A stretch of DNA of 64,000 bases, taken from assembly GCA_002270565.1 (NCBI GenBank), contig NQMI01000001.1, forward strand, positions 339,575 to 403,574, in the 5' to 3' direction. The position numbers and the translations under genes are program-made. Positions 17,329 through 55,230 of the stretch are shown in pieces. Under the pieces are notes generated by a model. It had not been told where the DNA came from. It saw only the letters and a program-made list of their open reading frames with translations, and did not search any database. How positions within the stretch are numbered: the first letter of the stretch is position 1; the number at the start of each line of letters is the position of its first letter. This DNA comes from Stenocarpella maydis (lineage: Eukaryota > Ascomycota > Sordariomycetes > Diaporthales > Diaporthaceae).

Positions 17329-19006
17329 GACCGCTGACTGACGGTCCCGAGTATGAAATGATGCTGATGGGTCTGTGATGCGCAGGAAGACGGTGGGTGG
17401 AGGCTTGCAGGGGAAGATCCAAGCTTTTGTCGACCTACGAACTTGGACACCTGATGAAAGTGGATTTACAAAGGTAATCCCGCTACAATAATGAGAGCCC
17501 GAAAGCCCGTCGGTCTTCTTGTCAAGTGCGATACGTTTCGATTGTACCCAGAAACGTCAATTACCAACATCGAAGTCCACATAATGGGGGATAGATGTCT
17601 AAGAAGCACTGCCAGTGTCACAGACGTACCGTCTGCTGCTCGCTAAGCGCATCACACGTGCGGATACAGATATCTAAGTGGTCATTCTGATGTTAAGGAA
17701 CGCGAGTCAATATCCTCAAAACTCGAATTTCAGCAACCAAGAAATATCATCAAGGGTGCCTATGTTTGGCAAAGCATCCCTTATCAGTTACCCGGTGTCT
17801 TTCCCGTGCTGGTCACGATTCCCGATCGCAGCCAGCCGCTGGTGTGACCACTTCCGGGTTCCAAGACACCATGTTTTGGAAATGAGTGATGCCAACGTAC
17901 CCTTCAGGTTAAGTCGGATTAAGACAGTGTGCGTGGGACAAGCTGAGCCCGCCACAGAGGTCATTGACCAAGAACATCCATGATTACCCGCCATATTAGC
18001 TTGGCATCACCCCCATGGACATTTTGATCTGACAATGTCGCGTTGTTAATCCGCCTCGGACTTGATGCCAGTCAGCTTGAAGGATTTTGACCGGGCTCGG
18101 ACGGAGCGAAAGGTCAAAGGCATGTTCCATTTTCGGACCTTTTCTCATAGCTGAAAGCGTCGCCCGAGATGACTGTACATGATGAAAGCAAAGGGAATTT
18201 TAGGATCATGCTAGCGGTTTTCTTTTAGCCGGGTATCAAGGGGTGGCACCTCGATGCTTACCTGAATTGGTCATCTCACTCACAGAATCTTCGTCCGCCG
18301 CTTGTCCGCCGCCCGTACACTGCTGCTCCGCCGGCTTTCTTCCGTCCGTCATCCGCAATCTGCAGTGCTTCGGCCGAGTTGGCCCGAAATACTCATAAGC
18401 CCTGAAACTTGCAGTTCGCAGATCTCGGTACATGTTATTTGGGTATTCTAGTTTGCTTTCCACTGTCGTGTGCCATTATATCGTGCCATGGTGAACTCGG
18501 TCCCATGTCACCTGGTGTCAGCCATGTTTTTAGACTGATGAAGTTGCTGCGCGTGACTTATACGAATGCCATTTTTCTTCTTCAGGGGCAGACTTTCTAA
18601 TTTTCAGGGATTGGTGTGCCAGGATGTAGATACCCCTCAATTGTTCAATAAGGCTCAGCCATCAACCACCTGGGCAAGAGCACAGAGTTCTTGAGATTTA
18701 GGCTTTAATCAGTTGCGTGCCATCGAAATTGGACAACGTGATTCGCAGAGTTAGCATGGTAATTATTGCTCGATCATAAAACCTAATGACAGTAATAAGA
18801 AGGCAGAAATACATTTGCTGTTCGTCCAAAATAGTCTATGAACGGAATTTTGACATACTATACGCCAGACGGTTTAAAAAATTAGACCAATTACAGACTA
18901 GTTAATGTTTGCATGCTAATTGGTTGGTATTAATGTTAAGAAAACCCCTGGTCTATGGAAGAACCCTAACCTGGAGGGATGAGTGGGCCTGCGAAGGGGG
19001 CCCTCC

Positions 19007-24907: not shown

Positions 24908-27900
24908 CTAATTCGACGCGAAGTATGCAAGAGCCTTCTCCATCTGCGCCTGGAGGAGGTGGACATGTCCGGGCATGGGCAGCTCGAAGTGGTCCCCAGC
25001 CACAGACAAGGCCATGACGTCTCCTCCGGTGTACCTGTCCCAGCCATTGGGGCCGAGGTTGCCGCCCTTGTCGGGAACCAAGCAGGCGAACGTGCCCAGC
25101 TTCGGATCCTCCATGAAGCCCTCGTAGGGCTCCGCCGGCACGCCCTGGCTGGCGAGCCTCTGCATCAGCGCCGGGTCGTCCGAGACGCGGTTGACAAGCC
25201 CCCTCTCGGCCCAGATGACGGCTGTTCGCGCGGGCCTCTCGGCCGGCGTCGTCGGCGCCGGTGTGTACTCGTTCATGGCCACGAAGAAGGCGCGGAAGTG
25301 GTCCCGCTGCGAGCCGATCGACCCCCACAGCCCGTCGCGAGCCACCGCCGCCTCGAACACGGCGTAGCTGAACTCGTCCTCGGCCAGGAGTGTGCGCTGG
25401 TCCGCCCGTCTCGTCCGCGGGCAGCACATGTCCACCAGCAGGAGCCCGCCGACGGGCCTGCCTGCTGCCGCCAGCTGGCGCGAGACCTCGAATGCCACGA
25501 GGCAGCCGGCTGAGTATCCGCCAACCAGGAAGGGTCCCGTCGGGTGCGCCTTGATGAGCGCCTCGACTACCAGCCGCGCCACACCCTCGATGCCCACCTT
25601 GCTGGTCATGCGCGAAGGGCACCGGAAGAATGGCGAGTCAACGCCGTAGACCGCCTGCTTCGACTTGAAAGGCCGCAGGTGGATGAAGGACGCGACGGTC
25701 CCCGTGCCATCGGACATCATGTACAGGGGGGTCTTGGCAGCGTTCGGACGGCCCTGCAGCAGCGTGATCCTGACGCTGGGCGGTGGTGACGTGTCATTGT
25801 CGTCGTCACCCTCCGCCTCCGGTGCAGGAGTCGCCGGCTCTTTCTCCACGTGAACCACGCTTGAGGCTGACGAAGTCACGGATTCAGGTACGGAAATGAC
25901 GGGCGGGAAGTCCTCGTCTGCGTCTGGAGTCGGAGACACGGCATTTTCATCTTCGTCATCGGAGGAATCGTCGCTGAACCCGTTCGCTGGGGCGCCGGCG
26001 TCTTGTCCGCCAAATCCACGGCGTAGATCGCCGATGCTGGGGAAGTCAAAGACGAAGGCGGCAGGTAGTTCGACGCCCAGCTCCTTGACCGCGGCAACCA
26101 CCTCAATGGCCATGATCGAGTCGACGCCGATATCTGCTACCATTGTGTCATCTGTAAACTCTGAGGGGTCGCTCCCAGTCGCCGCCGCGAGGCTGTCCAC
26201 AATGATCTGGAATTCCCCCCCGCCACGAGACTTCTGGCCATCCTCTTGCACCTTGCTCGTCTGACTTGCAGCAGGGGCCGCAGCTGAGGCAGGAGGGCGG
26301 TCCGCAATGTAGTCCTTGGCCTCTTTTGCGGCCGGCTTGTGGGGTTGTGCTCGTGGTGCAGCAACACCATGCTGCGAGCCTGAAGCATGCGGCCCGTCCA
26401 GGATATGTCTCCAAGTAGCAGTCTTGAACTCCTGGTACCGCAGGTCGATGGCCTGCATGACAATCTTGGACGTCACTGGGTCGAAAACGTATCCGGCGCA
26501 GAAGGCAGTGTCCTTCTCCCACCGCGAGATACGTGTGTACGTCAGGTACTGCCTCCCGGGCTCAACAGGCGCCAACTGCTCCACGCTCTTATAGCCCATA
26601 ACTACAAAGGTCGATGAGGCCGGCTTGGCGGGGTTACCGTTGACCATGAAGCCTGCCAGGTGTAGCAGGGCTTCGCCCCAGTACGGCGAGGACGTGAACC
26701 GAGTACCCGCTGGATCGGGTTTCAGCACAATTGTCGCGGCAGCCTCCTGGAAGTCACTAGCCACGTATGCCTCCTGGACACCGCGGAAGTCGGGCGAGAA
26801 CTCAACCGCGTTGGCAAATAACGCGAAGAACACATCAGGCTGGATGCGGTGGCCTGAGCCCTCCTTGGACTGCCGGATTCGCTCATCCATCTTCGCCTTG
26901 ATGAAGAAGGAGACACGGTCCAGGTCGACGCGAGCCTTCTCGGGGTTGCGGTACCTGATCCTCATGGACCCAAGATCATGGGACTCACCACGCTTCGAAG
27001 TTGCCTTGAACGTGACGAGGACAGAGTCCGCGGATGTACTCTCCATGGTCGCCGTGGAGTGTAGCTCGCCATCGATGCCAACGAGATCCCTCGTCAGCGG
27101 GGCGAGAAGCTCAGGATCGTGGAATGTCAGGTGGGCAGCTGTCACATCCTTCTTGCCGCTGTACTCGAGTGCGTACTTGGCAACTGTTGCGGCGGCATCG
27201 CTGAATACACTGCCTGACGCAAGGCCTATCTGTTGCATCTTATGGCCATCAATAAGCCCCATGAAGCCATAATCGGAAATTCCGGCCCGGAAAGTGACCT
27301 GGACCTTGGGTGACTGGGACTTTTCGACGAGGTATTGGGCAGTTGTGGCAAGGAACGCCTCTGTTGGAGCTGCGACTTGAGCACTTGCAGGAAGCAAGGT
27401 GTTGTTTCTGTCGGTATGAGTGATCCAGTAGTCCTTGACGTCCCAAGCATACGTTGGCAGCGACAACAGCTGGAGGTTGCTCTCATACGGTGAGTGGAGG
27501 GCAAGCCAGTCCACATCCGCACCGCTTGTGTACGCCGCAGCCAGGGTCTTTGAGATGGACGCCCAGTTGCTCGTGTTTGCGTCGATGGTGTGGTTAATCT
27601 TGGCGGGCGGCGGTGACAGCGTCGCGCGCACGAATGACGTGCACACTGGCCCAGGGCCGATCTCGAGCCAGACTGGGTCCTTGAGCGTGGACCTGACTGC
27701 CTTGAGGGCTCCAGAGAAGTCGACAGCCTGACGTGTCTGCTGGATGAGATAGTCCTCTCCAAACACGCCCGATCCATCGACGAGAGATGCGAGCAATGTC
27801 GACGCCACGGGGACCTTGGGCGGCGAGTAGGTTACGCCGCTTGCGAGGGCCTTGTATTCGTGCAGGATGGCATCCATCTGGAACGAATGGAACGCGAAAG

Positions 27901-30900
27901 GAACAGACAGCATCTTGGTGCGAGCCTTTGCGTCCTCTGACGTTATGCTCTCCTGCACTAGTGTCAAGTCCTCAGTCGTTCCGCTGATGACAGTGGCGTT
28001 GGGGCTGTTGATACACGCAACACCACACGAAGACTCGCCAATCTTGGTGAGGTGCTCTTCCACTGTTGCCACCGGAGCAGACACGGAGAGCATGGCGCAA
28101 GAGTCAGGCTCACACCTCTGCAACAACAGGCGAGCACGCTGGCCGACAAGGTAAAGGGCGTCTGTCAACGACAGGACACCCGCAGCGTGGAGAGCCGCGT
28201 ACTCTCCCAGGCTGTGACCCATCACCATGGCGGGTACAATTCCGGCAGAGCGCCAGAAAGCAGTCAGAGCTATTTCGAGCGTAACGACTGCGAGTTGAAC
28301 CTGCGCAGCGTCCTTGGTCGACACGTCAACGGCGCCGTCGGTGATGATATCCAAGAAGGACGGGAATCCATTTGCGGCACAAAGGTCAACGCACAAATCC
28401 ACAGTCTTGCGGAAGACACCGCTAGTAGAGTACAGTTCGGCACCCATGCCCGCGTAGTGGGAGCCTTGGCCGGTGAAGATAAAGACAACATTGGCCGGCG
28501 TAGACTTGACAGAGCTGGCGCGCTCGATCTCGGCCTCGAGCTTGGAGACTGCCTCTTGCGGCGTGGAAGCAGCAACTGCAAACCTGAAGGGATGGTGCAC
28601 TCTCCGAGCCGTCGTTGAGTAAGCAATGTCTTGGATGCGGGCCTCAGAGTTCGCTCGGAGCCACTTAGCGAGCCTGCGCATGTTGGCGATGTGCGACGCC
28701 GGTGTCCTGCCCGAGCTTGCAATGACATGTGTTGACCGGACGTCGACTCCTCCCTTGGTGGTCGGGTCCTTCTGGTATTCCTCGAGGACCACACACGCGT
28801 TTCCGCCCTGGGCATTCGCACATGGTCAGCTTTACACCCACCAGAGTCCTGAGCGGTACGAAGAGAAGAGGACCTACGGCTGCGTCGAAGTTGTTGACAA
28901 GAATGCGTTTCGGCTTATTAGCCACGGATTTGAGCTCCGTCGGCTCCGTTGGAATCACAATACTGCTGTCATCTTGTAGAAATTTCAGCACATTGGGGTT
29001 CATGCTGTGTGGCATGCCCGCCTGAGGAGGCACAACGCCCTTCTGTAGCATGAGAATGCTCTTCAGCACCGAGGACATCCCAGCTGCCTGTATTGTGTAC
29101 GCCGTCAGCATGTGATACATCCATGAATACAGCAGCGAAGCAACGGGATAGCTTACCGCCTCACTGTGGCCGATGTTGGCCTTGATGGCTCCGACTTGCA
29201 GGGGCTGCCCCCTGGGTCTCGGGGCAAAGACCTTGGATACTGCACCCATTTCTGCCTTGTCACCGACCTGGGTACCCGTTCCGTGCATCTCGATGTACGA
29301 GACATCATCAGGAGTCAGTCTCGCGTTTCGAAGCACCTTGTTAAAAAGACGTTCTTGGGCATTTGCATCTGATGTTGTGATGGATGTTGAGTTGCCAGAA
29401 TGGTTCCTTGCGGAAGAAGCAATAACGGCCAAGATGTTGTCGTTGTGGGCGATGGCATCCTCGAGCCTCTTCAGAACGACTGCACCACTGAAGTCTGCCC
29501 TGCAGTAGCCGTCGGCATCATCGCGGTACGTCTTGCAGTTGCCCGTCTCAGACAGCACACCAGCCTTACTGAGGATGGTAAAAGAATGGGGGTCTGACAG
29601 CACATTCGTGGCACCAGCAACCGCCATGTCCACGTCTTTGGAGAGCAGGCTCATGCAAGCAAGGTGGACGCACGAGGTTGCACCCGCACAGGCCGAGTCC
29701 AGTGCGTAGGCTGGCCCCTCCCACTTCATATGGAAGGCGAGCCGACCGGGGCCAAAGGCGCGCTGGATGCATTGCATCGTGTATGCATCGCATCCAAGGG
29801 CGTGGTGGCTAACCTTGTGCCAGTCGTCGGCGCTCTGCCCGAAGAAGACAGCTATCTTGTCCGGGTCCGTCCTCCTGGTCTGGCCAGCTGAGTACCCCGC
29901 CGTCTCGAGCGCCTCGTAGGCGTTCATCAGGAACAGCCTGTGGTTTGGATCCATCAGGAGTGCCTCACGCGGCGAGATGTGGAAGAACTTCGGGTCAAAG
30001 TGGCCCGGGTTCTTGATGAAGCACCCGTGCCGGCAGGTCATGGTACACTTGCCTGGGCCACCGGGACCGTGTTTGACGCAATAGTACTCGCCGAGGTTGA
30101 AGCGGTCGGCTGGGATTTCTTCGTGGCAGTCCTGGCCAGTCGCGACCACATTCCAAAACTCCTCCATATCCTCGCTGCCGGGGCCTTTGCCAGACATGCC
30201 GATGACGGCGACGGCACCTTCGCGGGCAGCCTTGGTCGATAACGATGATTCCGACTGACTCTGGCTCTTAGCCTGGGCGTCGGCTGCCAAATCATCATCT
30301 ACTGAAACGTGCCTTGTCAACGCGCCGAGGCCAGTCTTGAGAACATTAACGAGGTACGGTCCGTGGCCGCTAGGTCCCATCATCTTGACATCGACGTGTT
30401 GGGCGGTTCCAAGCTGGGCGCTGAGCTTGCCCATGGTCTTCACCAGATCCAGTCGTTGCGATAGGGTCTGCAATGCCGCGACCCGCAGCAGATGGCCCCA
30501 GTTTGAGAAAGAGGCATTGGCGTCGTCCCCGGCCAGAGCCCACATTTTATATCCCGGACGAAGCGGAGTGGACAAGAGAGGCGAGTCTCCGACAACATAG
30601 TCAATATCAGCCTCCGTAACGTCGAGGGTGTGCTGCATGGCGCGGATGCCGGTCAGCTCGTTCTTGGGCACCTTCTTCAGCTCAGAGCACTGGCTAAAGA
30701 CAAGTTCCAAGACCGACGGAGGTCCAATTATGGTGCTCCATCGGTCTCCCGTGATTGCTATCTTAACTCTTTTCGAAGAAGGGACACCCTAGTCACGCAT
30801 CTCAGGTCAGTCTACTTGTCTGAGAAATTGTATACCAATCGGAAAGGCACTAAATTACCATGGCCTGTTGAAATTGCTCCAAGATCTTCTCCAGTTCATC

Positions 30901-32309: not shown

Positions 32310-35300
32310 ATGCCTTCTGCAAAGATGGCCAACGACATACCCATCGCGGTCGTGGGCCTGGCATGCCGCTTTCCAGGCGACGCCAGCACTCCGTCCAAGT
32401 TCTGGGACATGCTCAGGGAGGGCAAAGGTTAGCCGCAACTTGATCTTGATTAGCAATCTTTAGTAACGATCTTTCTAACACCTCCCAGATGCCTACTCCC
32501 CAACCTCGAGCCGGTGGAATTCGGACGCCTTCTACCACCCCAATACGACACGCACCAATGTTATCCCCACAAAGGGTGGGCACTTCCTCAAGGAAGACCC
32601 GTACGTCTACGACGCGGCCTTCTTCAATATCACAGCGACCGAGGCAATTGCCCTGGACCCAAAGCAGCGGATAGCGATGGAGGTGACGTATGAGGCGCTC
32701 GAGAACGCCAACCTCAGCCTGCAGGACGTCTGGGGCACCCAGACCACGTGCTACATCGGGTCTGCGGTCAGCGACTACCGAGACTCTGTGATCCGCGACT
32801 TCATGCAGAACCCAAAGTACCATCTCCTCGGCACGGGCGAGGAGATGATCTCCAACCGTATCTCGCATTTTCTCAACATCCACGGGCCTAGTGCCACCGT
32901 GGCCACTGCCTGTTCGTCCAGTCTTATGGCTACGCATATGGCTGTGCAGAGCATCAAGTCGGGCGAGGCTGACATGGCCATTACGGGTGGTGTTGGCCTG
33001 ATGCTCACGCCTGACTTCACAACCGTAAGCGATGAATTCTAGACCTCGGAAATCTCCCTCCCAGTGTTACGCGACTCTTGGCGACGTGATAAATGAAACT
33101 ATGACTCACACAATTGTAACCCAGCATCTGGCGAACCTATCTTTCCTCAACCCAGCCGGCCAGTCAAGGGCCTTTGATGAGAGCGCAGGCGGCTACGGGC
33201 GTGGCGAGGGCTGTGGTATTATCATACTCAAGCGCCTCGACAAGGCACTTGCAGACGGTGATAACATCCGGTCCATCATCCGAGCTACTGGTGCTAACTC
33301 GGATGGTTACACCCAAGGAGGTGAGCACCTGTCTTTTTGATGTTGGAACAGTTGTAGGTGTTAACCATTTGTCCCCTGAAGTAACTATGCCGTCTCTTGA
33401 GGCCCAGGCCACCCTCATCAAACATGTGTATGAGTCTAATGGGCTCGACTTTGGCTCGACTCAATACGTTGAGGCACATGGGACAGGCACCAAGGCCGGA
33501 GATCCAATTGAGGCCGAGGCCATTTACACCACCATCGGAAAAGGAGCGTCCAGACGGGGAAAGCTGTGGATGGGTAGTCTCAAACCCAACGTAAGACAAC
33601 TTTCCCACGTGTTTTAAAAAACGATTCTCATTAACGGTCTCGATTTAGATTGGCCATCTCGAGCCCGCTGCTGGTGTCGCATCCATAATCAAAGGCGTTT
33701 TGGCCCTTGAGCACAGTCTCATCCCGCCGAATATCCGCTTCCACAACCCAAATCCAGCCATACCCTTTGACAAGTGGAATATGGCCGTCCCCACGGAACT
33801 CACCCCTTGGCCGGTAGCCCGAACGAAGCGTGTCAGCATCAATGGGTTTGGAATGGGTGGAACGAACGGTCACGTAGTGCTGGAGGCTTACAACCCCGCT
33901 ACTGCAACCAACGGCAGCGCAAAGCTCCTCAACAGTAGCGGGCCCCTGACCAAGCCACGGAGCAAGGCGCGTCTCTTTACGTTCAGCAGCTACGACCAGG
34001 CAGGCTTCAAGCGCAATGCCGCCGCGCTGGTCGAGCATCTCACGAACCTCGGCCCCGCCGGCTCAAGCCCAGAGTACCTTGCAAACCTGGCTCACAGCCT
34101 GTCCGGGGCACGATCGCGCCTCTCATGGAGGGCCACTACGGTGGCAGACAGTTCCACCGACCTTCGCGAGTACCTGACCTCCAGGCCGGGCGAGGGCGCC
34201 ACGCGCGACGGCAGCTCAAACACTGACCCAAAGCGTATTGGTTTCGTCTTCACTGGCCAGGGCGCCCAGTGGGCACGCATGGGTGTCGAGATGCTTGACC
34301 GCCCCGTCTTTGGTGCCTCGGTGGCCAAGTCAGCCCAGTTCCTGCGCGACATGGGCTGCACATGGGACCCTTCGGAGGAGCTCCTAAAGAGCCAGGAGGA
34401 CGGCTCCCGTCTTGGCCTGCCCGAGATCAGCCAGCCCATCTGCTCTGTGCTCCAGATTGCCCTGGTCGACGAGCTACGGGCGTGGGGCGTAACGCCGTCG
34501 CGAGTTGTTGGGCACTCGAGCGGTGAGATCGCTGCGGCTTACAGTATCGGCGCCCTGGGTCACCGGGACGCGATCGCCGCGGCCTACTTCAGGGGTGTGG
34601 CCGCAACCAAGCTCAAGGCCGAGTCACCTGGCCTGAAGCTCGGGATGATGGCTGTCGGATGCTCTCAAGAGGAGGCTGACACGCTGATCGCGCAGCAGGC
34701 AAAGCTCAACAGCGGCGGCGGTAAGGCCACTGTTGCTTGTGTCAACTCGCCTTCGAGTGTGACACTTTCGGGCGAAGTTGACTCGCTGGAGACACTGCGA
34801 GCGGTCCTCGATGGACGAAAGGTCTTCGCACGGCGGCTGAAGGTCGAGATGGCCTACCACAGCTCCCACATGAACAGGGTCATGGACCACTACCTTTCCA
34901 CCATTTCCGACGTTGAGCCTCTCCCGGCACGCGAGGATCAGGGCACCATGGTATCCAGCGTCGCGGGCTATGAGATCAGCCCCGAGGCTCTCGGCCCATA
35001 CTACTGGGTTCGCAACCTGGTTTCTCCCGTGCTGTTTTCTGACGCCGTGAAGGAGCTCGTCTCCCCGGATGATGAGGAGGAGGGCAACACGGTCGACCTC
35101 CTGATCGAGGTTGGCCCTCACAGCGCACTCGGCGGCCCTGTCGAGCAGATCTTGAGCCACCACGGAATCGAGAAGGTCGGATACGACTCCATTCTGACTC
35201 GCGGCAAGGACGCACTCAAGACAAGCCTGGAGCTTGCCTCCAATCTTTTCCTCGCCGGTGTGCCCCTGAACATCAGCCAAGTCAACGGCGACCTGCAGAC

Positions 35301-38300
35301 CCGCCAGCTGATTGACTTGCCTCCATACCAGTGGAACCACTCCAAGGCCTTCCGCCATGAAACGCGTATCCAGCGAGAGCTCATGACACGCCAGTTCCCC
35401 AAAAAGAGCCTGCTCGGCGCCAAGAACGCGATGATGGACGAGACGCAGCACACATGGCGCAACTTCATCCGGCTGGACGACGAGCCTTGGATCCGCGGCC
35501 ACACCATCGGCAGCACGGTGCTGCTGCCGGCCGCGGGCATGGTCAGCATGGCACTGGCCGCGGCTCAGCAGCTTGCCGAGCCTGAGAAGACATCACGGGC
35601 GCTGCGGCTGCGTGAGGTGTCTTTCTTTGCTGCCATGGCACTGCCGGAGGAGGCGGCCACCGAGGTCATCACCACACTGCGGCCACACCTCGTGGCCACG
35701 TCCGGGTCGTCGTCGTCCGCGTGGTGGGAATTCACGATCTCGTCGTGTGTCGGGGTTGACCAGCTGCGTGACAACTGCCGCGGCCTGATCGCCATCGAGT
35801 ATAAGGAATCGACCAGCGCGCAGATGGCCCACGAGAACGCTGAGCTTGAGGCGGCCCGCATCGCGGACTTCCACCGCATCGTAAAGGAGTGCCCAGACAT
35901 CCTCTCCAAGACGGAGTTCTACGAGGAGTGTGCCAAGATCTCGTGGAACTACGGCGAGCTCTTCCAGGGCGTGGAGAAGGTCCACCTCGGATACGGCCAG
36001 ACTGCGTACCATGTCAAGATCGCCGACATTGGTGAGACGTACAGCAGGGGGCTGGAGCGCCCATTCCTGATTCATGGTGCAGCCCTGGACGCCATCATCC
36101 ACGGCTCGCTTGGTGGCACGTACAGGGACAAAGTCTCCCAGCAGGACAAGCCGCTCCTGCCGACTTATATTGGTGAGATGGAGATCTCGCTCGAAATCCC
36201 CGATGATGTGGGATACGTGCTGCCCTCCTCGTGCGTGTCCAAGAAACTCGGCTTCAATGCGCTCTCCTCTAACATCGTATCGTTCAACGACACCGTGTCA
36301 AAGACGCTCTTGTCCATGACCGACTTCAGGCTTACCGAGATTGGCAACGACGACAAGCAGGATGATGGTAAGGTGGAGTTCGACCCGGCCGATATCACTT
36401 CGGAGGTGCGCTGGAACTATGCGCTCGGGGTGATGAAGCCTGAGGAGATCGCCAGTGTCATATCTGCGATTCCCCGAGGGAACAGGGCTGTCGAGCTGCT
36501 TCACATGCTCATCCACGACAACCCCTCCGCCACTGTCATCGAGCTTGTGTCAGACAGCGAGGCTCTGTCTGGCGCAACCGTCCCACAAATGCCCAAGAGT
36601 ACCATTCTGCCAAGCCAGGTGAGGTACGCTGTGGTCGCAGGCGTGAGCGCGGACCTGGACAAGGCGTCCCTGTTCGGAGACGCCTTCTCTCTGGGCGGTG
36701 TCGACGAGCCCTTACCCGCTGAGACCACGCAGGCCGACTTGCTGGTAGTTCCGCAGACAGTCAGCGTCGTTGAGGACTTGGAACAGGTCCTGGCCCGCTT
36801 TGCTGGCCTCGCCAAGCCCGAAGCGTCAATCATCCTCTCCGTCAACGGCAAGGCCGCGTCCGCATTCGAGGCTAAAGGATTCCAGCCCGTCTTCGCCGTG
36901 GACGGTGCTGGTCTGTACAAGCAGCAGCAGGCCAATGGTGTCAATGGCGCCAGCAGTCCAGCCACAAGCAAGAGCGACTTTGTCATCGTCGAGCCGTCTG
37001 CCCCCTCGAGTGTCGTCAAGTCCTTCTCCAGTGCTCTCCAAAAGGCCCTTGATTGGGAAAACCACCGCTCAGTGGCCACCGCATGGACAGACCTCAGCAT
37101 CCAAGGTGCCGAAGGCAAGACTTACATCTCCCTCGTTGAGCTTGAGACACCATTTCTGGACAACCTGTCCGAGGAGGATTTCAGCAAGGTGAAGCAGCTA
37201 GTCTCCAACACCGAGCGCCTCCTCTGGGTTACGGGAGGCGACAGCCCATCCATGGCTGTGATTGATGGCCTATCTCGGACGGCCAGGAACGAGAACGCCA
37301 GCCTCAAGTTCCAGGTCCTCCATCTGAGCAGCCTCGCCGCGGCGCAGCAATACGGGCCGTCTCTAGTCTCTCGGCTCGTGACTTCCGACACAAAGGACGA
37401 CGAGTTCCGCGAGCGTGACGGGTTTCTCACTGCCAGCCGGTTCTTCAACAGTGTTGCGGGTAATGAGGCGGTGCGTTATTGCCTCGAGGATTCTGTTCGG
37501 GTCCAGCTATTGAAGGAGAACCACGACAGCAACAAGCCTGAAGCTCTCAGGCTCACAATCGGGAAGCCTGGCCTGTTGGACTCTTTGGCCTTCATCCATG
37601 ACGAGCGGTTCGATGTCCCGCTTGGGGAGATGGAGATCGAGCTTGATGTCAAGGCCACGGGTGTCAAGTAAGTTCACTCATTGCCGAGAGGCCTATCCCA
37701 CCCACAGCAGTCGAGCAGATTCTTACAGTCTTTACAGCTTCAAGGATGTCATGGCCTCCATGGGCCTGGTCGAGGTGTCACTGATCGGCCACGAAGCTAG
37801 TGGCATCATCGTCGCTACAGGCAGCAAAGCCGCTGACAGGTTTAAGATTGGCGACCGCGTTGTCGTGTCTGGAGAGGGAATGCACGCAACCAGGCTCCGG
37901 AGCGACCACCGACTGGTAGTCAAGATCCCTGACACAATGTCCTTTGCGGAGGCCGCTGTTCTCCCGACTGTTCACGCAACCGCATACCATGCCCTTGTGA
38001 ACGTCGCTAAGCTACGACCAGGCCAGTCCGTTCTCATCCACGCGGCAGCTGGTGGTGTCGGCCAGGCGGCGCTGCAACTTGCCAAGTATCTGGGCCTTGT
38101 GGTGTATGTTACGGTCGGTAGCGAGGACAAGAGCGCGCTGGTAACGGAGAAATATGGTGTTCCTGTAGGACACATCTTCTACTCGCGAGACGCCAGCTTT
38201 GTCAAGGCCATAAGGAGAGTCACGGGCGGCCGTGGTGTCGACTGCGTGCTCAACTCGCTGTCGGGCGAGCTTCTGCGGGCGTCGTGGGAGTGCGTGGCCA

Positions 38301-39802
38301 TGTTTGGCACCTTCGTCGAGATTGGGCTGCGGGACATCACAAACAACATGCGGCTGGACATGCGGCCCTTCATCAAGTGCACTACCTTCGCCTTTATCAA
38401 CCTGACCAACTTCTTTGACGACCACAAGGACATTGCCGGCCAGATCCTGCAGGACACCTTCGACCTCGTCCACAAGGGCGTGCTTTACGCGCCGAGCCCT
38501 CTGACAGCCTACCCCGTTGGCGAGATCGAGTCCGCATTCCGTACCATGCAGCGCGGTAAGCACCGCGGCAAGCTGGCCCTGTCGTTCCCCGACGGAGTCC
38601 GCGCAAAGGTCTGCCGCCGCGCCAAGGACGCCCTCAAGCTCGACGCCGACGTAACCTACCTCATCGCCGGTGGTCTTGGGGGGCTCGGCCGCAGTCTCGC
38701 GCGTGAGCTCGTCGCGTGCGGCGCACGCAATATCGCCTTCCTATCTCGGTCCGGCGCCTCCACCGTCGAGGCCCGCGAGGTCATCGACGAGCTTTCATCC
38801 CGCGGCGCCCAGGCCAAGGCGTACCGCGCAGACGTGGCTGATGAGGCCTCGTTCCTCTCCGCAATGGACGCGTGCTCGCGCGAGCTGCCGCCCGTCCGCG
38901 GCGTGGTGCAGATGGCCATGGTGCTCCGCGACGGCGTGCTTGAGAACATGTCGCACGCGGACTGGTCCGTGCCGCTGCGACCCAAGGTGCAAGGAACGTG
39001 GAACCTGCACACCTACTTTGGCGCCGAGCGGCCCCTCGACTTCTTCATCGCCTGCTCGTCCGTGTCAGGCGTCTGCGGCAACGCAGGCCAGGCACAGTAC
39101 GCCGCAGGAAACACGTACCAGGACGCGCTGGCGCAGTACCGCCGCGACAGGGGCCTCAAGGCCGTCGCCGTCAACCTGGGCATCATGCGCGACGTCGGTG
39201 CCATCGCCGAATCCGCCGGCGTCGGCAACAACCTCTCGCAGTGGCAGGACGTCATTGGCATCCGCGAGCCGGCCTTCCACGCACTCATCAAGAGCCTGAT
39301 CGCCCGCCAGCGCGACGCCGCCGGCGACGAGGCCGAGCCCTGCCCCGCGCAGGTGTGCACCGGCCTCGGCTCCGCGGACCTGATCGCAGCCCACGGGCTG
39401 TCCCTCCCGTACTACTTTGCCGACCCACGGCTGGGGCCCCTCGCAGTCCGGACGAGCGTCTCGGCGCAGGCGGCGGGCGGCGAGCAGGGCAGGGCGGGGG
39501 CGTCGCTCGCGGGGCGGCTCGCCGAGGCCGGGGGCGACGCGGACCGGGCGGCCGAGGTGATCCTGGACGCGCTGGTGCACAAGATCGCAGACATGCTGCA
39601 GATCCCGGCGTCCGAGGTGGACCCGGGCAGGCCGATGTACCGGTACGGCGTGGACTCGCTGGTGGCGCTCGAGGTGCGCAACTGGATCACGAGGGAGCTC
39701 AAGGCCAACGTCGCGCTGCTGGAGATCCTGGCGGCCGTCCCGATGGCGGCGTTCGCGGGCAAGATTGCCGAGAAGAGCAAGCTGGTTGCCGGCACAGAGT
39801 AG
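32310..39802 (+). CDS. Highly reducing polyketide synthase KS-AT-DH-ER-KR-ACP
   Basis: Six exons (32310-32427, 32489-33024, 33125-33320, 33382-33590, 33649-37667, 37738-39802) join to 2,380 aa. KS is at about 8-435 with TACSSS (Cys181), EAHGTGT and [10 protein letters not shown] is at about 550-870 with GQGAQW and GHSSGE (Ser about 643). DH is at about 940-1230, [13 protein letters not shown] (His about 971). A region of ~430 residues without S-adenosylmethionine motifs follows; it is the structural part, not a methyltransferase. ER is at about 1670-1985, with GVNFKDVM and [12 protein letters not shown] is at about 2000-2190, with [10 protein letters not shown] and a Tyr in QAQYAAGN. The C-terminal ACP has GVDSL (Ser about 2333). 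No release domain is present, so the chain is handed on, most likely to the SAT of the adjacent NR-PKS. All reducing domains look complete. The first intron donor is GTTAGC, less usual but needed for frame. Confidence 0.94.
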
Positions 39803-40855: not shown

Positions 40856-43800
40856 ATGGGAGAGAAACCAACCAGCACCCCGGCTCGCACGCCGGCAAAG
40901 ACGCCCTCGTCCACTGTGAAGCAGCAGAGCATCTTGGGCTTCTTCTCCAAGGCCGGCCAGCCCAAGCCCAAGCCCAAGCCCAAACCCAATGCCTCCGCCC
41001 AGGCTTCGTCCGCCTCTGCCTCTGCCACTCCATCCACCTCAAAGACAGACAAGGTCTCGTCGACGTGCCTCAAGGAGACCACAAAGGCCAACTCCCTGTC
41101 CTTTGCCAAACGCCCATCCAACATCACTCCGGTCCCTAGCAGTGATGCAGCAGAGCCACTAAGCTCCCAGGAGAATGTCGATGTCATGACTGTCGACTCC
41201 AAGGTACCCAGCGACTCCTTGCTGTCACCAAAGTCTCCTACTGAGCTCGACCACCAGCCAGCAACACTGCCCAATGCCACGGTGCTACCGAGCAGCAGCC
41301 CGTCCCGAAAGGTATGCTACTCCGATTGCAAACTGCTTTACGTCTGACTGAGCACTGACGGACAATCACCAGGCCAAGAAAGCAGTCAACTACGCTGAGT
41401 CGTCCGACGAGGAAGACGAAGACGTCATGTCGCACAACACGCGTCCCACGCGGAATAAGAGCCGCGCCCGCGCCGCTATCATAGACGAAGACGAGGAAGA
41501 AGATGAATACGAGGGTCACGATGCGTTTGATGATGACGACGGTATGTATTCGCGGCAGAGCACGTTGCACGACGGCGGTTGACTGATGCTGCTGGACAGA
41601 CGATATGGCCGACTTTGTCGTCTCGGACGAATCTGACGCACCCTCCAAGTCAAAGAAGAGGAAACGGCCGACCCCCAAGTCCGAGCCGGCCCCCAGGAAG
41701 CGACACCCCTCATCGAGCTCCCCCACCAGTGCCCAGAAGGGAGACGGCCTTGACGAAGACGAGCCGATGAACAACGCCTCCGGTACATCCTCGGCGCAGC
41801 AGTGGCTGTACGACCCCGATACCGTCGAAAGGCGGCAAGAGGGCAGTTCGGCCCCTGTCGCCAAGTCGAAAGCGGTGGTCACAAAAGCGAAGGAAAGGGC
41901 ATGCGACAAGGAGCCAGAGAAGAGGCATCGCTGGCTTGCGGAACCTCTCGATGCTGATCGGAACCCCCCTGGCCACCCAGATTTCAACCCTGGAACGCTC
42001 TACGTGCCGCCGAGCCAGAAGTTCTCCGCCTTTGAGCAGCAGTACTGGGACATCAAGAAAAACCTGTGGGACACCGTGGTCTTCTTCAAGAAGGGCAAGT
42101 TCTACGAGCTCTACGAGAATGACGCCACCCTGGGGCACCAGCTCTTCGACCTGAAAATGACGGATCGTGTCAACATGCGCATGGTTGGTGTACCCGAAGG
42201 CTCCCTCGACATGTGGGTCAACCAATTCATCGCAAAAGGCTACAAGGTCGCCCGGGTTGACCAGATGGAGTCGGCCCTCGGCAAGGAGATGCGTGAGCGT
42301 GACGGCCCCAAGGCCGCAAAGGGCAAGGAAGACAAGATTATTCGTCGAGAGCTGGCCTGCATCCTGACCGGAGGCACTCTGGTTGACGGCAGCATGCTCC
42401 AGGACGACATGGCCGTCTATTGCGCAGCCATCAAGGAGTGCGTCATCGACGGCCTGCCCGCCTTTGGCATCGCTTTTGTCGATGCCGCCACGGGGCAGTT
42501 CTTCGTGTCCGAGTTTGTTGACGACGTTGATCTCACCAAATTCGAGACCTTTGTGGCCCAGATCTCTCCCCGGGAGCTCCTGTTGGAGAAGTCTCACATT
42601 TCCGTCAAGGCGATGCGGGTCCTCAAAAACAACACCTCACCCACAACCATCTGGAACAACCTCAAGTCAAACGCCGAGTTCTGGGGCTCCGACCAGACAC
42701 GTCGCGAGCTTGATTGCAGCGGCTACTTTGTCCAGGAAGGAAACGGCGAAGAGGTCTGGCCAGAGGTACTCAAGGAGTCCAAGGACAAAAACCTGCTGAT
42801 GTCCGCACTCGGCGCTCTCATACACTACCTGCGAGTCCTCAAGATTGAGAGGAGTCTCCTGTCTCAGGGCAACGTCGAATGGTATACGCCCATTCACAAG
42901 AATGGCACTCTCATCCTTGACGGGCAGACCCTCATCAATCTCGAGGTCTTTTCCAACACGGTCAACGGCGGACCCGAGGGCACACTGTTCTCCTTGCTTA
43001 ACCGTTGTGTGACACCATTCGGCAAGCGGCTCTTCCGACAATGGATATGTCACCCTCTCTGCAATATCGACAAGATCAATGAGCGCCTGGATGCCGTGGA
43101 TCTGCTCAACGCCGACCCCACCATCCGCGGGCAGTTCTCTGCGGAAATGACCAAGATGCCAGATCTTGAGAGGCTGATCTCTCGCATCCATGCCGGCGTC
43201 TGCCGGCCAGATGATTTTGTCAGGGTCCTCGATGGGTTCGAGCAGATCGATTACACAATGACTCTGATGAGTGCTTTTGGGGGCGGCAACACGATGGTGG
43301 ACTGCTTGATCTCATCGATGCCGAGCCTGAAGGAGCCTCTGGACTTTTGGAAGAACGCCTTCGACAGGAGAAAGGCGCGCGAGGAAAAGCTCTTTATCCC
43401 TGAACGAGGTATCGAGGAAGAGTTTGACGAGAGCATGGACAACATCAAGCGGATCAAGAAGGACCTCGATGCGCTCCTCGCGGAGCAAAAGGGGAAACTG
43501 AAGTGCCCGAAACTCAAGTTCTGCGACGTCGGCAAGGAAATATACCAGATTGAGGCCCCTAAGGCAGTCAAGGTACCCAAGGACTGGCGCCAGATGTCAG
43601 CGACCGCAGCGGTCAAGCGCTACTACTTCCAGGGCCTTCTAAAACTCGTGCGTGAGCTGCAGGAAGCCGAGGAACTGCACTCCCAAGTTATCAAGGACGT
43701 GGCCGCCAGCTTCTTCAGGCGCTTCGACGCCGATAACGAGACCTGGCTGCGGGCCATCAGGGTGGTCGCCCAGCTTGACTGCCTCATCAGCCTGGCCAAG

Positions 43801-44755
43801 TCGTCGGCCGCGCTGGGCCAGCCGAGCTGCCGGCCTACGTTTGTCGACCAGGAGCGAAGCGTTGTGGAGTTTGAGGAACTGCGCCATCCGTGCATGTTGA
43901 ATAGTGTCGACGACTTCATCCCCAACGACGTCAAGCTCGGAGGTGATGGCGCCAAGATCAATCTCCTGACTGGTGCCAATGCAGCTGGAAAGTCTACAGT
44001 GCTTCGCATGGTAAGTTCTGCCTGGTATGGCGCCTCGGGAGGATTACGCTAACGCCATACAGTCTTGTGTCGCCGTCATCATGGCTCAGATCGGCTGCTA
44101 CGTACCGGCTGTTTCCGCGAGGCTGACACCAGTTGACCGGATCATGTCTCGCCTGGGGGCCAACGACAATATCTTCGCCGCACAGTCCACCTTCTTCGTG
44201 GAGCTATCCGAGACCAAGAAGATCCTGTCCGAGGCGACACCTCGGTCTCTTGTCATCTTGGATGAACTCGGCCGCGGCACGTCGTCATACGACGGCGTTG
44301 CCGTTGCACAGGCCGTGCTGCATCAAGTTGCAACACATGTGGGCTGCGTCGGCTTCTTCGCCACGCACTACCACAGTCTGGCAACCGAGTTCGAGAACCA
44401 CCCGGAGATTGCACCGCGGCGCATGCAGATCTACGTCGACGAGGCCAACCGCAGGGTGACGTTCCTGTACAAGCTGGAGGAGGGCGTGGCCGAGGGCTCG
44501 TTCGGCATGCACTGTGCGGCCATGTGCGGCATCCCCGACAAGGTGATTGAGAGGGCCGAGGTGGCCGCCAAGGAGTGGGAGCACACGTCCCGCCTCAAGG
44601 AGAGCCTCGAGCGGGCAAAGACGGGGTGCTACATCCCGCTGGGTGTTCTCAGTGACGTTGCGTCCCTGCTCAAGGGGCGGCAGGATGCAGAGGGGACCAG
44701 TGAGGTCCGCGCTGCGGGTATGGATGTACTCTTGAGGGCTATTGAGGCATTGTGA
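40856..44755 (+). CDS. MSH6: DNA mismatch repair protein MSH6
   Basis: Four exons (40856-41311, 41373-41541, 41600-44010, 44063-44755) give 1,242 aa. The N-terminus has a PCNA-binding box QQSILGFF (residues 23-30) and a long disordered acidic/basic tail, as in MSH6 orthologues. The mismatch-binding domain has the Phe-x-Glu motif in GKFYELYE (about 374-381). The C-terminal ABC-type ATPase has the Walker A stretch TGANAAGKST (about 1000; the fungal form of GPNMGGKST) and Walker B LVILDELGRGTSS (about 1075). MSH6 pairs with MSH2 in the nucleus as MutS-alpha and recognises base mismatches and small loops. It is a housekeeping gene and marks the right edge of the polyketide cluster. The third intron lies just after the Walker A region. 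Confidence 0.96.
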
Positions 44756-46975: not shown

Positions 46976-48088
46976 TCACTTCTTCGTTATCCCGACTTTG
47001 GTTTGCTTCTGCTTGCGCTCATGTGACAACAATAGTGTCGCATAGGCAGTCTCAGAAGCATCTCCAACCTGCTGTATGCTTTTATTATGGGAGACCTGGC
47101 CTCGGAAGGTGTTCTGTCGCTCCATCGTGTTTCCGGCAGTGCCCACAATTTGAAGGGAATCATCCATAGATCCCTGCCCCGTGTAAGTGCTGCCCTTCAA
47201 GGGACCCTCCTGGCCGGGAGCCTTCTGACCAGGAACTACCTGATTCGTTTGATCGTGACCAGCCAAGCCCTTCCATTCATTATGACGGACGTTCATGTTT
47301 GTGGCGATGACCGAGTGCTGAGAGGGCGGCTTGTTGTGGTAATTTTGACCTTGTTCCGAGGCAGACCCAAGACGATGGCCTTGCTCAAACTCCGCGCCCC
47401 AGGGCCGTTGTTGAGTACCGCTACCAGGATCGAAGATGGTATGAGTGTTGCTCATGCTGTGTCCTGCTAGACCACGAGTGATAGATTAGCTTTCAGTGCC
47501 TCTCCACATGCTTTAAATGCATATATTACAACAAAGACCGGGGTGGGGGCTGGGGAAGGAGCCGAGCCTACCAGAGATGGAAAGATGACTGCCAACCTTT
47601 TCCAAGTTGGTAATGAAGAAGTCAAGATCGTGAATCAGGGTGTCAAATCGCTTCTTGTCGCGAACTGCCCAAACAACGTGTCTACGAAACGATAAGATAC
47701 CGGAGAATGAATTCGGTCTGGCCTTTGGAAGAGGTCGGAGGAGGAAGGGGAAGCACTTCCGTTTATCCAGCCCATATTTATGTTTCAGCTTGGACGCATC
47801 CCCTAGAATATCGCCGATGCCTATTAGGCATCTTTAGATAATACCACCTTCTAACTCATCGGTCAGGGCCATGTGCCACCCTCCATCTTCTCGACTAGTG
47901 TCAAGTGCATCGAGTTGACACCCCCAGCTCCGCAGTCTTGTCTCCAGGAGGTGCAGCTTGGTGCTGATAAGCTCTCCGTCCTCCAAGAGATTCCGAGCGA
48001 CCTCGACATACCCGAGAAATTCGACGCTTGTTTGGAATAGGCTGACAAGAGCAACAGCTCCAAGGGCCAATCCGGCGGCCTCGGCCAT
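46976..48088 (-). pseudogene. HET-s-like HeLo-domain protein with C-terminal repeats; in-frame stop
   Basis: Exon 1 (48088-47572) and exon 2 (47463-46976) join in frame across a 108-bp intron and would give 334 codons. Exon 1 is a full HeLo (prion-inhibition and propagation) domain: it starts MAEAAGLALGAVALVSLFQT, has RLRSWGCQL, then RCLIGIGDILGDASKLKHKYG, and ends with KKRFDTLIHDLDFFITNLEK. HeLo domains are membrane-attacking modules, as in HET-S. Exon 2 holds three imperfect repeats (residues about 234, 264 and 290) of the form N-T-F-x-G-Q-...-S-x-Q-x-V-G. They are placed where HET-s keeps its amyloid region. A TAA at 47836-47834 (codon 85) interrupts the HeLo domain; both sides keep the same frame. 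It could be a CAA-to-TAA (RIP-type) mutation, a sequencing error, or an atypical 24-27-nt intron. If the stop is real the gene is broken. Confidence 0.7.
47054..47281 (-). repeat. Three imperfect 26-30-residue protein repeats (possible amyloid motif)
   Basis: The repeats start NEWKGLAGHDQ, STYTGQGSMDD and NTFRGQVSHNK, each followed by a T/S-x-Q-x-V-G-type end. Spacing is 30 then 26 residues. Aromatic-x-Gly and Gln-x-Val-Gly positions are shared. Similar short repeated motifs form beta-solenoid amyloids downstream of HeLo domains in known fungal systems; here it is inference. Confidence 0.55.
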
Positions 48089-49023
48089 TGTGGAAAAAGT
48101 GAGAACCGAGATGTTTTCTGGGGGATCGAGCGGCTAGTTTGAGGAGCAGGAGGCTTTTTCAACATTGTCTCATGACAATACGGCTCGCTGATGCTTTCAG
48201 GGCATCAGCAAAGCATGCTTGGGGCGCAGCACCCCCTCCATCCAAACGTGTGCAATCCTCAAATGCGGTACAGCCTTCTTATTCTCTGTAACCTCATGCA
48301 GCGGTTACCAATCAATCGGTGACAGGTGTGCGCAATTTGTAGATCATGTAGAATGGCAAGCAAGGTTAGCTGACATGGTGAGTCAGAAAGGGGGTTGGCG
48401 TAACAAAGACTATTGAAAATTGTCTGACCTACGAATCATGCACTTCCAGGATAGCTATCGAGATGGGGCCATGAGAATCCCAGCTTGAAGTTAAGTTGAG
48501 AATTTAGGATACCCTTGGCCGTTCATATAGATATCGCCACCTTCTCAAAGGTCCAGGAAGGTCGGTCAGCGCGCCAATGCGTTCCACAAAGTGCGCCAAG
48601 ACGTCCCACAAGGTGCTGCGGACTGGCACGCCGGCCGGAAAGTGTACACATGGCTAATCAAAACCTAGAGTCTGCCTCGGATCAGCGAGTCTAGACCATG
48701 CGACAGGGGTTTTTGGGTGATGTGGTAGACCGGCACGACGCCCGACCATAGTACGAAAAGTGCAGCCCCTGAGTTCGCCTCGCGTGATCGAGCCTCATAC
48801 GTACCTAGGTACCAAGGTAGGTACTTGGCTAGACTATACCTGAGAGTATGAATTAGTGTAACATGCATTTAGGGCCTCAGCGCCAAATCATTGCCGCTGG
48901 AGCCATGGAAAAACAGACCGCCAGCTCTGGCATAAAAATTTAGACAACTTGCAATATCTACGGGTCGGACACCCGTCTAGGTATATAGCCTCGCCACAGG
49001 TTGAGCAACCTTGAGCGTGGCAA
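48089..49023. other. Intergenic, divergent promoters
   Basis: The region lies between the HeLo gene and the divergent frame at 49024. It carries a copy of the CCTAGGTA motif (48801-48824). No gene is visible. Confidence 0.5.
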
Positions 49024-50064
49024 TGGCAGAGCCTCAACGTGGGCCGCCGTCGCACACATTTAACTTCAATATCGATACCATAGGCGGGAGCAAATACAGC
49101 GAAAACACCACCGAAGGGTCATCTGTTGGAATTTTTGGAAGCATCGGTGAGCTTCTGCCTCAGAATCAGTTCAAGACAATCGGCCATCAATTTCTTGTTT
49201 ATTCCTTCACTCGCTAACTATATGCGCATAGAGAGACGCTGCAGCTTTGACGCTGGTAGTAGTCAAAGAGGCGAAAACATGGGGAACAACAGCAAGCCAG
49301 AAAACGAGGGAAACAAAATTCTGACCGAGTCACCATACGACGAACTTAATCCTAAAGAGGGAGCAAAGAATATTTCGGCAACCCATCTGACCCCGGAATA
49401 TACATGCAGCACCTCTATAAACCCGCCACATTCCTCTAGCCCGTCCTTTACGTCGTCAAGATTCTCCCAGCAGTCTGATGTATCTGCGGACAATCCTCGG
49501 GACGAAGAGTTCATCCGCAGAAACACGGCCTCGTAGTTCAAGCGGAGCAAAATGTTCAAGATTTCAAGATCCTACGAGAACACCGCTATCGCAGGATCCT
49601 TAATGATAGTTATCGGCAGGAGAAACTCGTCAATAATCTGTTTGCCGCTGGTCAGACACTTGGGGATCTCAGGCAATGAGAAGAGTTTCTTCGGAGGAAG
49701 GGTATCTGTTTATGCCAAGGGTAGTCAGGCACCCTCGCATCCTGCCGCCTGTGTGTGTCCCTGCGAGCCCCTGCCGGTGTCGCTAGAGAAGAGGCGTGGA
49801 CTCTACGACGACATGTGGATCAACATCGGGGAGCCCCAGACGATAAGGTTCCAGGACGTGGAGGTCGCCCTGCACGGAAACATGGGCGAGGATGATTTCA
49901 GGAAACTGCGGGGGGCATATTTGACTGCCCAGAACAGCATCACTGACAGTGACGAGAAGAAACGGCCGAATACTTTGGTGCTACACGTGGAGCTCTTCTG
50001 GGGCTTCGTTAGCAGGAGTGGTGTCTGGTTGGGCCGAAAGGTTGGCTTATGGATTGGGGGATGA
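49024..50064 (+). CDS. Unrecognised gene, N-terminal motif resembling the HeLo-gene repeats
   Basis: A first exon from the ATG at 49024 reads MAEPQRGPPSHTFNFNID and then SKYSENTTEGSSVGIFGSIG. It ends at a GTGAGC donor (49146). An acceptor near 49230 continues a Ser/Asn-rich frame (CSFDAGSSQ to NTAS, stop at 49536). Another frame (49552-50064) encodes MWINIGEPQTIRFQDVEVALHG and a charged stretch, and a third frame in between reads as charged helix (REHRYRRILNDSYRQEKLV). The true exon structure is not clear and the gene may be decayed. The stretch SKYS...SVGIFG aligns without gaps to the HeLo-gene repeats (shared S, Y, S, I, G positions). No NACHT or other known domain is seen. Confidence 0.35.
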
Positions 50065-53105: not shown

Positions 53106-54933
53106 TCATTCTTTTTTCAGCTCGCCGGGAGGTGCTCCGTCGACGTCCTTGTTACTTGGGGCGCGGACACTAGACGCGGCCTCGTCGTCGGCGACCTTGG
53201 TCTCCTCGACCTCGAGCGGCAGGATCAGGTTGAGGAACATGGTCACGAATGCGGTGATGACAAAACCATTTCCCATCACGAGGTTTATCGCCTCCAGAAA
53301 CCCGAGGAGGCTGGGGCTAGGATGTGCCTTGTCAAAGACGATATCGAAATAGTTGGGGACCAGGGTGGCGCCGTATCCGAGAGCCAGGCCGGCGGTGAGG
53401 ATAAACCGGTTTCGGCGGTTGAAGGAGACGCCTTTTGCTATAATGGCCATGCCCGACACCGCAACACTGGTAAACAAGAAGGTGGTCATGCCGCCAATGA
53501 CAGGAGAGGGTATGGCGACCAGGGCGGCCGCGAACTTTGCAAAGATGCCCATGACAATCAGGAAGAAGCAGCAGCAGTAGCCGGCCTTGCGGTTGGCGCA
53601 GCGGGTCAGGGCGATGACGCCGTTGTTCTGGGCAAAGGTTGTCATTGGTGTGATGGTGCACAGTGCGGCGATGCAGCCATTGATGCCGTCGGCCAGCACG
53701 CCGCCCTGGATGCGGCTCTCGTACAGCTTGCCTTCGACCTCGAGGCGTGATACGTCGCATGTGGCCGTGACGTCGCCGATGGCCTCGCAGGCGCATATGA
53801 TGAAGACGGCCAGCATCGGGAGCACCAGCGGCCCGTACACCGTAAGCCTGAACGTGTGGACCCAGATGAAGCTCGCCACGGGGGCGGCGTCGATGCCAGA
53901 CCGGTCAAAATAGCCGGTGGCGGCGGCAATAATGCAGCCGACCAGCAGGCCGATGATGACCGAGGTTGACTTCATTATCGGGGCACCGAAGCGCTCACAG
54001 AGAATGATTGTTGCGAAGACGGACAGGCCGAGGCCGAGGAACTCGGGGCTGCCCCAGGGCAGCGCGTGCGGCGCCGAGTCCGAAGGGCAGAGCTTGAACC
54101 CATCCGTCTCGCCGCTCATGCAGGTGCCACTACCACCCGCCCAGCTCTGGAAGCCGGTCTCGATGAGTTCAATGCCGATCAACATGACTGTGGGGCCGGT
54201 CACGATGGGTGGGAAGATGCGGAGCATGACCTTTGGCGGGAGGAAGGAGATGAGGATCTCGAGCAGGGAGCAGACGGCGGCGGTGCCAATGACTGCGCCG
54301 TAGCCGTCCGGGCAGGGAAGTCTCGTGTCCCCGTCGCTAGGGCAGAAGCCGTTCTTGTACATCTGGTCCAGGGCGCCTCCTGCCACGGTGATTGTGGCGA
54401 ATGACACGCCGACGACCGAGATTACTCCAGTTCCGATGTAGTATCTGCGCGTCAAGGTCAGCTTATGCGGGGAAGACGCCGCCTGCTTCCAGCGAACTAG
54501 GGGGTTCGTGGCCGTACGGTGTCTTGAAGATGTGGAATCTTGTAATCTGGATGATGGAGAGCAGACCTGAGACGATCAGGGCAGTCGAGACAAGGTACTG
54601 GGACAACTCTGGTGTAAGGTTGGCCCCTCCAGAGCCGGCAAGGATGATCGGGGGCGTGATGAGGCCGGCAAGCATGGCCAGGGAGTGCTGTAAGCCGAGG
54701 AGCAGGGCGAGGACCACGGGGATCTTGTCGTTGAGGCCGAAGAACGGGGCTTCGTGTGGCCGTTTCTTGATGAAGGGGATGCCGGGGGTGAAGAGAAAGG
54801 CGTAGTCGTAGTCACCCAGCAGGCCATCCTTTGTGAAAAAGGCATGCTTGAAGCCACGCAGGCGGTCGCCCAGGGTCTTCTTGCCGTGGGTGTTGTCCGG
54901 GACGATCTGCGAAGGCCCCTGGTCCTCATCCAT
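53106..54933 (-). CDS. Uric acid/xanthine permease, UapA/UapC type (NAT family)
   Basis: Two exons (54933-54518 and 54444-53106) give 584 aa, close to UapA at 574. The 73-bp intron joins TP to YYIGTG. The start was chosen at MDEDQG, which precedes the family's N-terminal KDGLLGDYDYAFLF stretch. About 14 hydrophobic segments follow. The NAT signature QNNGVIALTR, which sets substrate binding in UapA, is intact, and the N-terminal QHSLAMLAG and ITPPIILAG segments are present. The protein sits in the plasma membrane and imports uric acid and xanthine with protons, feeding nitrogen use. The upstream region has a GATA-type site AGATAAG (complement at 55231-55237), in keeping with AreA-type nitrogen control. 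Confidence 0.93.
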
Positions 54934-55230
54934 GGCGCCGGCAGGGGAGAGCTGGTGACTCTGCTGTTGTTGTAGATGTTGCCGTCGTGTAGAAGCAGTG
55001 GTGAGTGGGTGAGTGAGTGACCCGTCGCAGCACCAGGGTATACTGTGAGACCAGAGAGGACGGAGCAGGACAGACAATATCAGGTCCGCGACGATGTCTG
55101 AGAAATGGGGGGTTCGAGGTCAGTGGCCTTATAAAAATCACAAGGGGAGAGAGGGGGGACTAATAAGAAGACCAGCCCTGGGCCAAAAGGTGTCGTCCGT
55201 GTGTCATTGAGCTGTGATAGGTAACTAGTG

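Follow-up and report, generated by a model that had tools for sequence, protein, structure and literature searches.

The 64,000-nucleotide stretch of Stenocarpella maydis DNA analyzed here (the window, part of contig C1 of a 53.5-Mb assembly) carries two divergent neighboring genes, a HET-s-like HeLo gene on the minus strand and a short partner gene on the plus strand. Neither has an uninterrupted frame in this assembly, the first being broken by a TAA and the second by a TAG. We put at about even the probability that this locus is a cell-death module of two genes under amyloid control, composed of a HET-S-like executioner and a trigger other than a NOD-like receptor (NLR), and that both genes were recently inactivated in this strain. 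The executioner identity of the HeLo gene is well supported; the partner would serve as its trigger. An initial annotation, made from the sequence alone, had described the HeLo gene. Of the two genes, the interrupted neighbor, absent from that annotation, is the more unusual.

The mechanism that we propose is modeled on HET-S/NWD2 of Podospora anserina (PMC3321046, PMC12881547). The minus-strand gene would encode a HET-S-type executioner, with an N-terminal HeLo membrane-attack domain and a C-terminal two-repeat switch of the HET-s-related amyloid motif (HRAM) type, while the divergent plus-strand gene would encode a non-NLR protein with an N-terminal r0-like amyloid motif and a DUF6590-like domain. 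Upon sensing a cue, the partner would cluster; its r0 motif would then fold and template repeats r1 and r2 of the executioner, whose HeLo domain would attack and permeabilize the membrane. The amyloid folding, the templating, and the sensing role are all carried over by analogy. In P. anserina, het-s and nwd2 are divergent neighbors and the motif lies at the N terminus of the receptor (PMC3321046). The likeness to that system comprises the HeLo N terminus, two C-terminal 21-residue pseudo-repeats, and the divergent neighbor, to which can be added the single related motif at the N terminus of the P. anserina neighbor, represented here by a candidate motif (PMC3321046, PMC4518210). Unlike NWD2, however, the neighbor here is a short DUF6590-like protein without a NACHT, NPHP3_N, or NB-ARC match; the repeat sequence has also diverged, and both genes are interrupted.

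The HeLo gene and its C-terminal repeats

A whole-genome profile search placed a HeLo domain (PF14479) on the minus strand at C1:387168-387647, corresponding to window positions 47594-48073. The match scored 77.5 bits (cut-off 23.2), covered profile positions 1-176 of 205, and contained a single TAA. The pieces flanking this codon scored 47 and 31.8 bits separately, both above the cut-off, which bears out the annotation of a HET-s-like HeLo gene interrupted by an in-frame stop. The profile has seven matches genome-wide, the window copy being one of them. The N-terminal HeLo piece also matched the solved chains 2wvn (E 0.0063) and 2wvo (E 0.025), deposited as small s protein. Our gene model consists of exon 1 (48088-47572, ATG at 48088), a predicted GT..AG intron of 105 nt (47467-47571) that joins the frames as the initial annotation had proposed, and exon 2 (47466-46976), which encodes a linker followed by the C-terminal amyloid-type repeats and, with the intron removed, aligns with the orthologue P0001. 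The product has 335 residues when the stop is counted as X.

A protein search returned 34 relatives of the HeLo gene at E ≤ 0.001, the best of which, P0001 from Diaporthe sp. PMI_573, is 52% identical across 95% of the query. Fourteen of the 34 were taken into the HeLo alignment. The TAA (47834-47836) stands at residue 85, within the HeLo domain, and because its column holds a sense residue in 14/14 aligned relatives we consider it a nonsense codon in this assembly. Glutamine occurs in this column in none of the 14, and the CAA allele that had been suggested for other strains has no support. An intron spanning the stop was also considered: an in-frame GT..AG option of 48 nt, spotted by eye, would delete residues that align with relatives and was rejected. 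A 7-bp hairpin is predicted at 47816-47832 on the minus strand, beginning 2 bases past the TAA. In a 41-nt fold it had a z of -3.12, with 0/200 shuffles as stable; in a 61-nt fold the z was -1.18, with 21/200.

The C-terminal exon contains two 21-residue repeats in HRAM register, with an aromatic residue at position 5, Gln at 16, and Gly at 19. Repeat r1 (47135-47197, minus strand) corresponds to approximately residues 263-283 and r2 (47057-47119, minus strand) to approximately residues 289-309. No shuffle out of 20000 matched the similarity between them. Using a profile built from 22 repeats of 11 relatives, from which the window was left out and in which P0001 was included, only r1 and r2 were matched in this exon (7.9 and 8.5 bits), and its open reading frame (ORF) ranked first of 1856 ORF segments in the window, with an E of 1.9e-4. 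Matches above zero bits were found in 13 of the 34 HeLo relatives, 11 of which were in the training set, and every one of the 13 has exactly two. The other 21 relatives had no repeat match, partly owing to short gene models; in P0026 and P0027 two HRAM-like stretches can be seen by eye, yet the profile did not match them.

Ten of the 13 repeat-bearing relatives were used for a repeat alignment (P0007, P0025, and P0033 were left out). In both repeats Gly 19 is invariant (10/10), and Gln 16 is present in 8/10 copies of r1 and 9/10 of r2. The published description of HRAMs gives a conserved Gly at position 19 and hydrophobic residues at 5, 8, 10, 16, and 18, with Gln 16 as the mark of HRAM5 and His 3 as that of HRAM3 (PMC4518210). 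Positions 5 and 18 of the window repeats fit the hydrophobic pattern, and position 16 is Gln, as in HRAM5; position 10 is Ser. His 3, the mark of HRAM3, occurs in many of the relatives. The window repeats depart from both subfamilies in having Ser or Asn at position 3, as those of P0001 also do, and Gln at position 8. On the strength of the invariant Gly 19 and the common Gln 16 we place the family with the HRAMs, to which the repeats fit by position, nearest HRAM5, in a comparison made with the published description only. It follows that no new motif class has to be postulated, and the suggestion of a new prion-forming motif gives way to the known HRAM pattern.

The divergent partner gene and its r0-like motif

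A gene of two exons begins with the ATG at 49023 on the plus strand, divergent from the HeLo gene and separated from it by a 934-bp intergenic region (48089-49022) that is a possible shared promoter. Exon 1 (49023-49146), a predicted GT..AG intron of 85 nt (49147-49231), and exon 2 (49232-50064) make up the gene, both exons aligning with relatives. A search with the partner protein returned seven relatives at E ≤ 0.01, extended to 12 by profile, and none carries a precomputed Pfam domain. The best of them, P0035, is 58% identical across 98%, and for the HeLo gene and the partner alike, the nearest relatives with a named source come from Diaporthe. Exon 2 encodes the conserved domain of the family. 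Of 10 partner relatives scanned with a DUF6590 (PF20233) profile, 8 gave weak matches, 3 of which span nearly the whole profile, and it is to this extent that we call the domain DUF6590-like. A PDB search with the partner alignment returned two virus VP3 chains (E 0.86 and 1.3), which we took as chance.

The premature in-frame TAG lies at 49534-49536 in exon 2, and the whole-genome search likewise found one TAG within the partner match. Its column holds a sense residue in 7/7 relatives and, in the larger set, in 10/12, these being the ones that cover the column. A 57-nt in-frame intron option spanning the TAG, found by eye, was rejected as it would delete the conserved segment preceding the stop.

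Exon 1 encodes a stretch (residues 21-41; 49083-49145, plus strand) whose alignment to r1 needs no gap and keeps the position-19 glycine in register. With the repeat profile the exon-1 ORF ranked eighth of the 1856 segments, and in the relative P0038 the profile matched at full length and in register, at 2.8 bits. When the window stretch was compared with r1 of P0001, the similarity was again in register and 54/5000 shuffles were as good. The pair from PMI_573 gave 95/5000, its best match being to r2 and shifted rather than to r1, and P0001 against P0038 gave 163/5000; these shuffle tests are not mutually independent. As a control we scored 60-residue blocks of the partner proteins, and in PMI_573 the blocks containing r0 were highest (32 against ≤24). 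The r0 motifs of NLRs have been reported to be Ser-rich (PMC4518210), and the partner stretch is Ser-rich too, in agreement with that reported composition. We regard the stretch, with weak to moderate confidence and from its sequence, as a putative r0-like motif.

The partner gene has a second, decayed copy at C36:38076-38294 (locus L014, approximately 4622-5228), in pieces that lie in different frames and contain stops. Its r0-like region is faint (E 0.13) and its nearest relatives are P0038 and P0040. No HeLo gene was detected beside it in 15 kb with P0001 and P0006 as queries (best E 0.60).

Linkage in relatives, NLR context, and age of the stop codons

In 4 of the 12 partner relatives, the longest contig for the partner has the same size as that for a HeLo relative: 2194850 (P0001/P0035), 135694 (P0002/P0039), 8921 (P0003/P0038), and 12770 (P0015/P0045). 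Because these sizes are equal, the two families are probably linked in the four relatives; on the two short contigs, linkage would mean a distance within 9 and 13 kb.

NLR-type matches are numerous in the genome, with at least 23 to NACHT, at least 59 to NPHP3_N, and at least 10 to NB-ARC, some of which overlap. Contig C1 has them at 19, 660, and 1448 kb; the HeLo gene is at 387 kb, and the nearest of them is 272 kb away. The match at 660 kb is an NB-ARC fragment of 23.6 bits, barely above the cut-off and with a stop inside. No NACHT, NPHP3_N, or NB-ARC match was found on C1 between 20 and 659 kb, nor was any NLR-type domain detected when 30 window ORFs were scanned, namely 29 of the 74 with at least 150 amino acids and a short one. 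Since there is no NLR match nearby, the locus is not a HET-S/NWD2-type pair in the sense of an adjacent NLR, and it may work like one despite its non-NLR neighbor. In a 2015 survey, an adjacent NLR was reported for 98 of 155 HRAM HeLo genes and none was reported for the remaining 57 (PMC4518210).

Two further HeLo loci of the genome were observed. A second HeLo gene, at C37:107594-107905 (loci L006 and L017), has a C-terminal exon with a weak HRAM-like stretch (7.0 bits, E 0.47); no NLR or DUF6590 match was found in 10 scanned of 28 nearby ORFs of at least 150 amino acids, and C37 has no NACHT, NPHP3_N, or NB-ARC match. At C309:142283-143621 (locus L005), a HeLo domain is followed closely by an NPHP3_N/NACHT match and is probably part of a HeLo-NLR fusion.

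The HeLo domain of the window copy is 56, 57, 56, 57, 54, 52, 47, and 44% identical to eight more distant relatives, and that of P0001 is 55, 55, 55, 53, 52, 47, 47, and 42% identical to the same eight, the window copy equaling or exceeding P0001 throughout. For the partner, identity to the distant clade is 37-39% for the window and 34-37% for P0035. As neither gene is clearly accelerated, both nonsense codons are probably recent, and with a single nonsense codon per gene and a frame that is otherwise open, the module was probably lost recently. The earlier suggestion that the HeLo gene has been lost in this strain is thus upheld as far as one assembly allows. Repeat-induced point mutation has no support as the cause, the corresponding indices of both genes being near the window median. 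In filamentous ascomycetes, premature UAG codons are corrected by adenosine-to-inosine (A-to-I) editing during sexual development, and UAA edited to UGA remains a stop (PMC11156358). Such editing could therefore in principle rescue the partner UAG and not the HeLo UAA. The partner UAG does not lie in any hairpin loop of its predicted fold (z -1.25 and -0.93).

Alternative explanations, significance, and window surroundings

A number of results weigh against a two-gene module. Within the partner, the exon-1 ORF has an E of 11 with the repeat profile, P0035 reaches only 1.6 bits, and the motif is present in only P0035 and P0038 of the 12 relatives, the other gene models starting downstream or lacking it. 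The window's own r0 and r1 are not significantly similar (2068/5000 shuffles as good), and the window HeLo protein compared with P0038 gave 4492/5000. In the 60-residue control, the C-terminal block of the window partner scored 27, above the 23 of the first block, which contains r0. All DUF6590 matches of the relatives are under the curated cut-off (best 21.6 against 27 bits), no match was obtained for the window protein, and its gene is absent from the matches listed in the genome DUF6590 search. AlphaFold models of the partner are very poor, with a mean pLDDT (predicted local distance difference test) of 34.3 and 35.2. On the executioner side, PDB and Pfam searches with the C terminus or the repeat alignment gave no link of the repeats to HET-s. 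Equal contig size suggests linkage, from which adjacency and orientation in the other species would be a further step. The terminal branches of the window copies are also somewhat long: 0.20 for HeLo, where P0001 has 0.12 and P0002 has 0.09 (that of P0003 is longer, at 0.24), and 0.15 for the partner against 0.13 for P0035.

The most serious alternative, which we consider rather unlikely, invokes an NLR encoded at another genomic site as the present or former trigger of the HeLo-HRAM executioner; the DUF6590-like neighbor would then be a linked gene with a different function, and the r0-like stretch would be due to chance. The abundance of NLR-type domains in the genome and the 57 surveyed HRAM HeLo genes without a reported adjacent NLR would both accommodate such a trigger (PMC4518210), as would the non-significant similarity of the window's r0 and r1. 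Several features count against this view. The two families are probably still linked in four relatives, including one from a clade whose partner proteins are only 36-40% identical; each of the two genes is broken by a nonsense codon in the same genome; and r1 and the r0-like stretch share one register.

It is improbable that the stops are not losses at all, being instead assembly errors, sites bypassed by readthrough or A-to-I editing, or, in the HeLo gene, the natural end of an 84-residue fragment that is itself the product. The absence of clear acceleration and of further frame damage in either gene would agree with functional genes, the partner stop is of the UAG type that ascomycete editing corrects (PMC11156358), and the 7-bp hairpin after the HeLo TAA, stable in the 41-nt fold, could in principle favor recoding. 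Against this, the partner UAG is in no predicted hairpin loop, the HeLo hairpin is unremarkable in the 61-nt fold, and two independent assembly errors in adjoining genes would be an unlikely coincidence. Least probable is the view of the initial annotation that three repeats form a new prion motif. The candidate third repeat (47219-47284, minus strand), from residue 234, weakly resembles r2 (153/5000 shuffles as good) and resembles r1 at chance level (1247/5000). The repeat profile does not detect it, the best orthologue, P0001, has a gap there, and the 13 relatives with any match have two each. That r1 and r2 share several defining positions with the HRAMs as published (PMC4518210) argues in the same direction. 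The annotation had named a lack of repeat conservation in homologues among the findings that would refute it: r1 and r2 are conserved and the third repeat is not.

If the locus is indeed a module of a HeLo executioner and a non-NLR trigger, HET-s-type amyloid signaling would extend beyond NLR receptors. In Diaporthe and related fungi it would couple a HeLo executioner to a new class of compact, r0-bearing, DUF6590-like triggers, and systems of this kind could lose both parts by near-simultaneous nonsense. We advance this broader claim tentatively and lean somewhat against it. Among the open-access PMC papers searched, we found no description of a non-NLR partner of a HeLo protein and no use of the term DUF6590. 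For the HRAM HeLo genes without a reported adjacent NLR (57/155; PMC4518210), a conserved non-NLR neighbor bearing an r0-like motif would be a testable candidate for the trigger; if true, this would be the first proposed role for DUF6590-type proteins. The 2015 survey kept only proteins of fewer than 310 residues (PMC4518210), and this limit may explain why the family has gone unnoticed, since 10 of the 13 repeat-bearing relatives exceed that length.

Elsewhere in the window, two divergent polyketide synthases lie at 24911-30788 (minus strand) and 33649-39799 (plus strand). One has SAT, KS, AT, ACP, and thioesterase domains and the other is of the highly-reducing type. Together with the genes for an MFS/TRI12-like transporter (at 15553-17556) and for a Zn2Cys6 regulator (at 11397-12869), this pair looks like a polyketide cluster. 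A MutS-family gene with domains I-V (41587-44752, plus strand) stands beside the HeLo locus, and a gene of the xanthine/uracil permease family is located at 53109-55119 on the minus strand.
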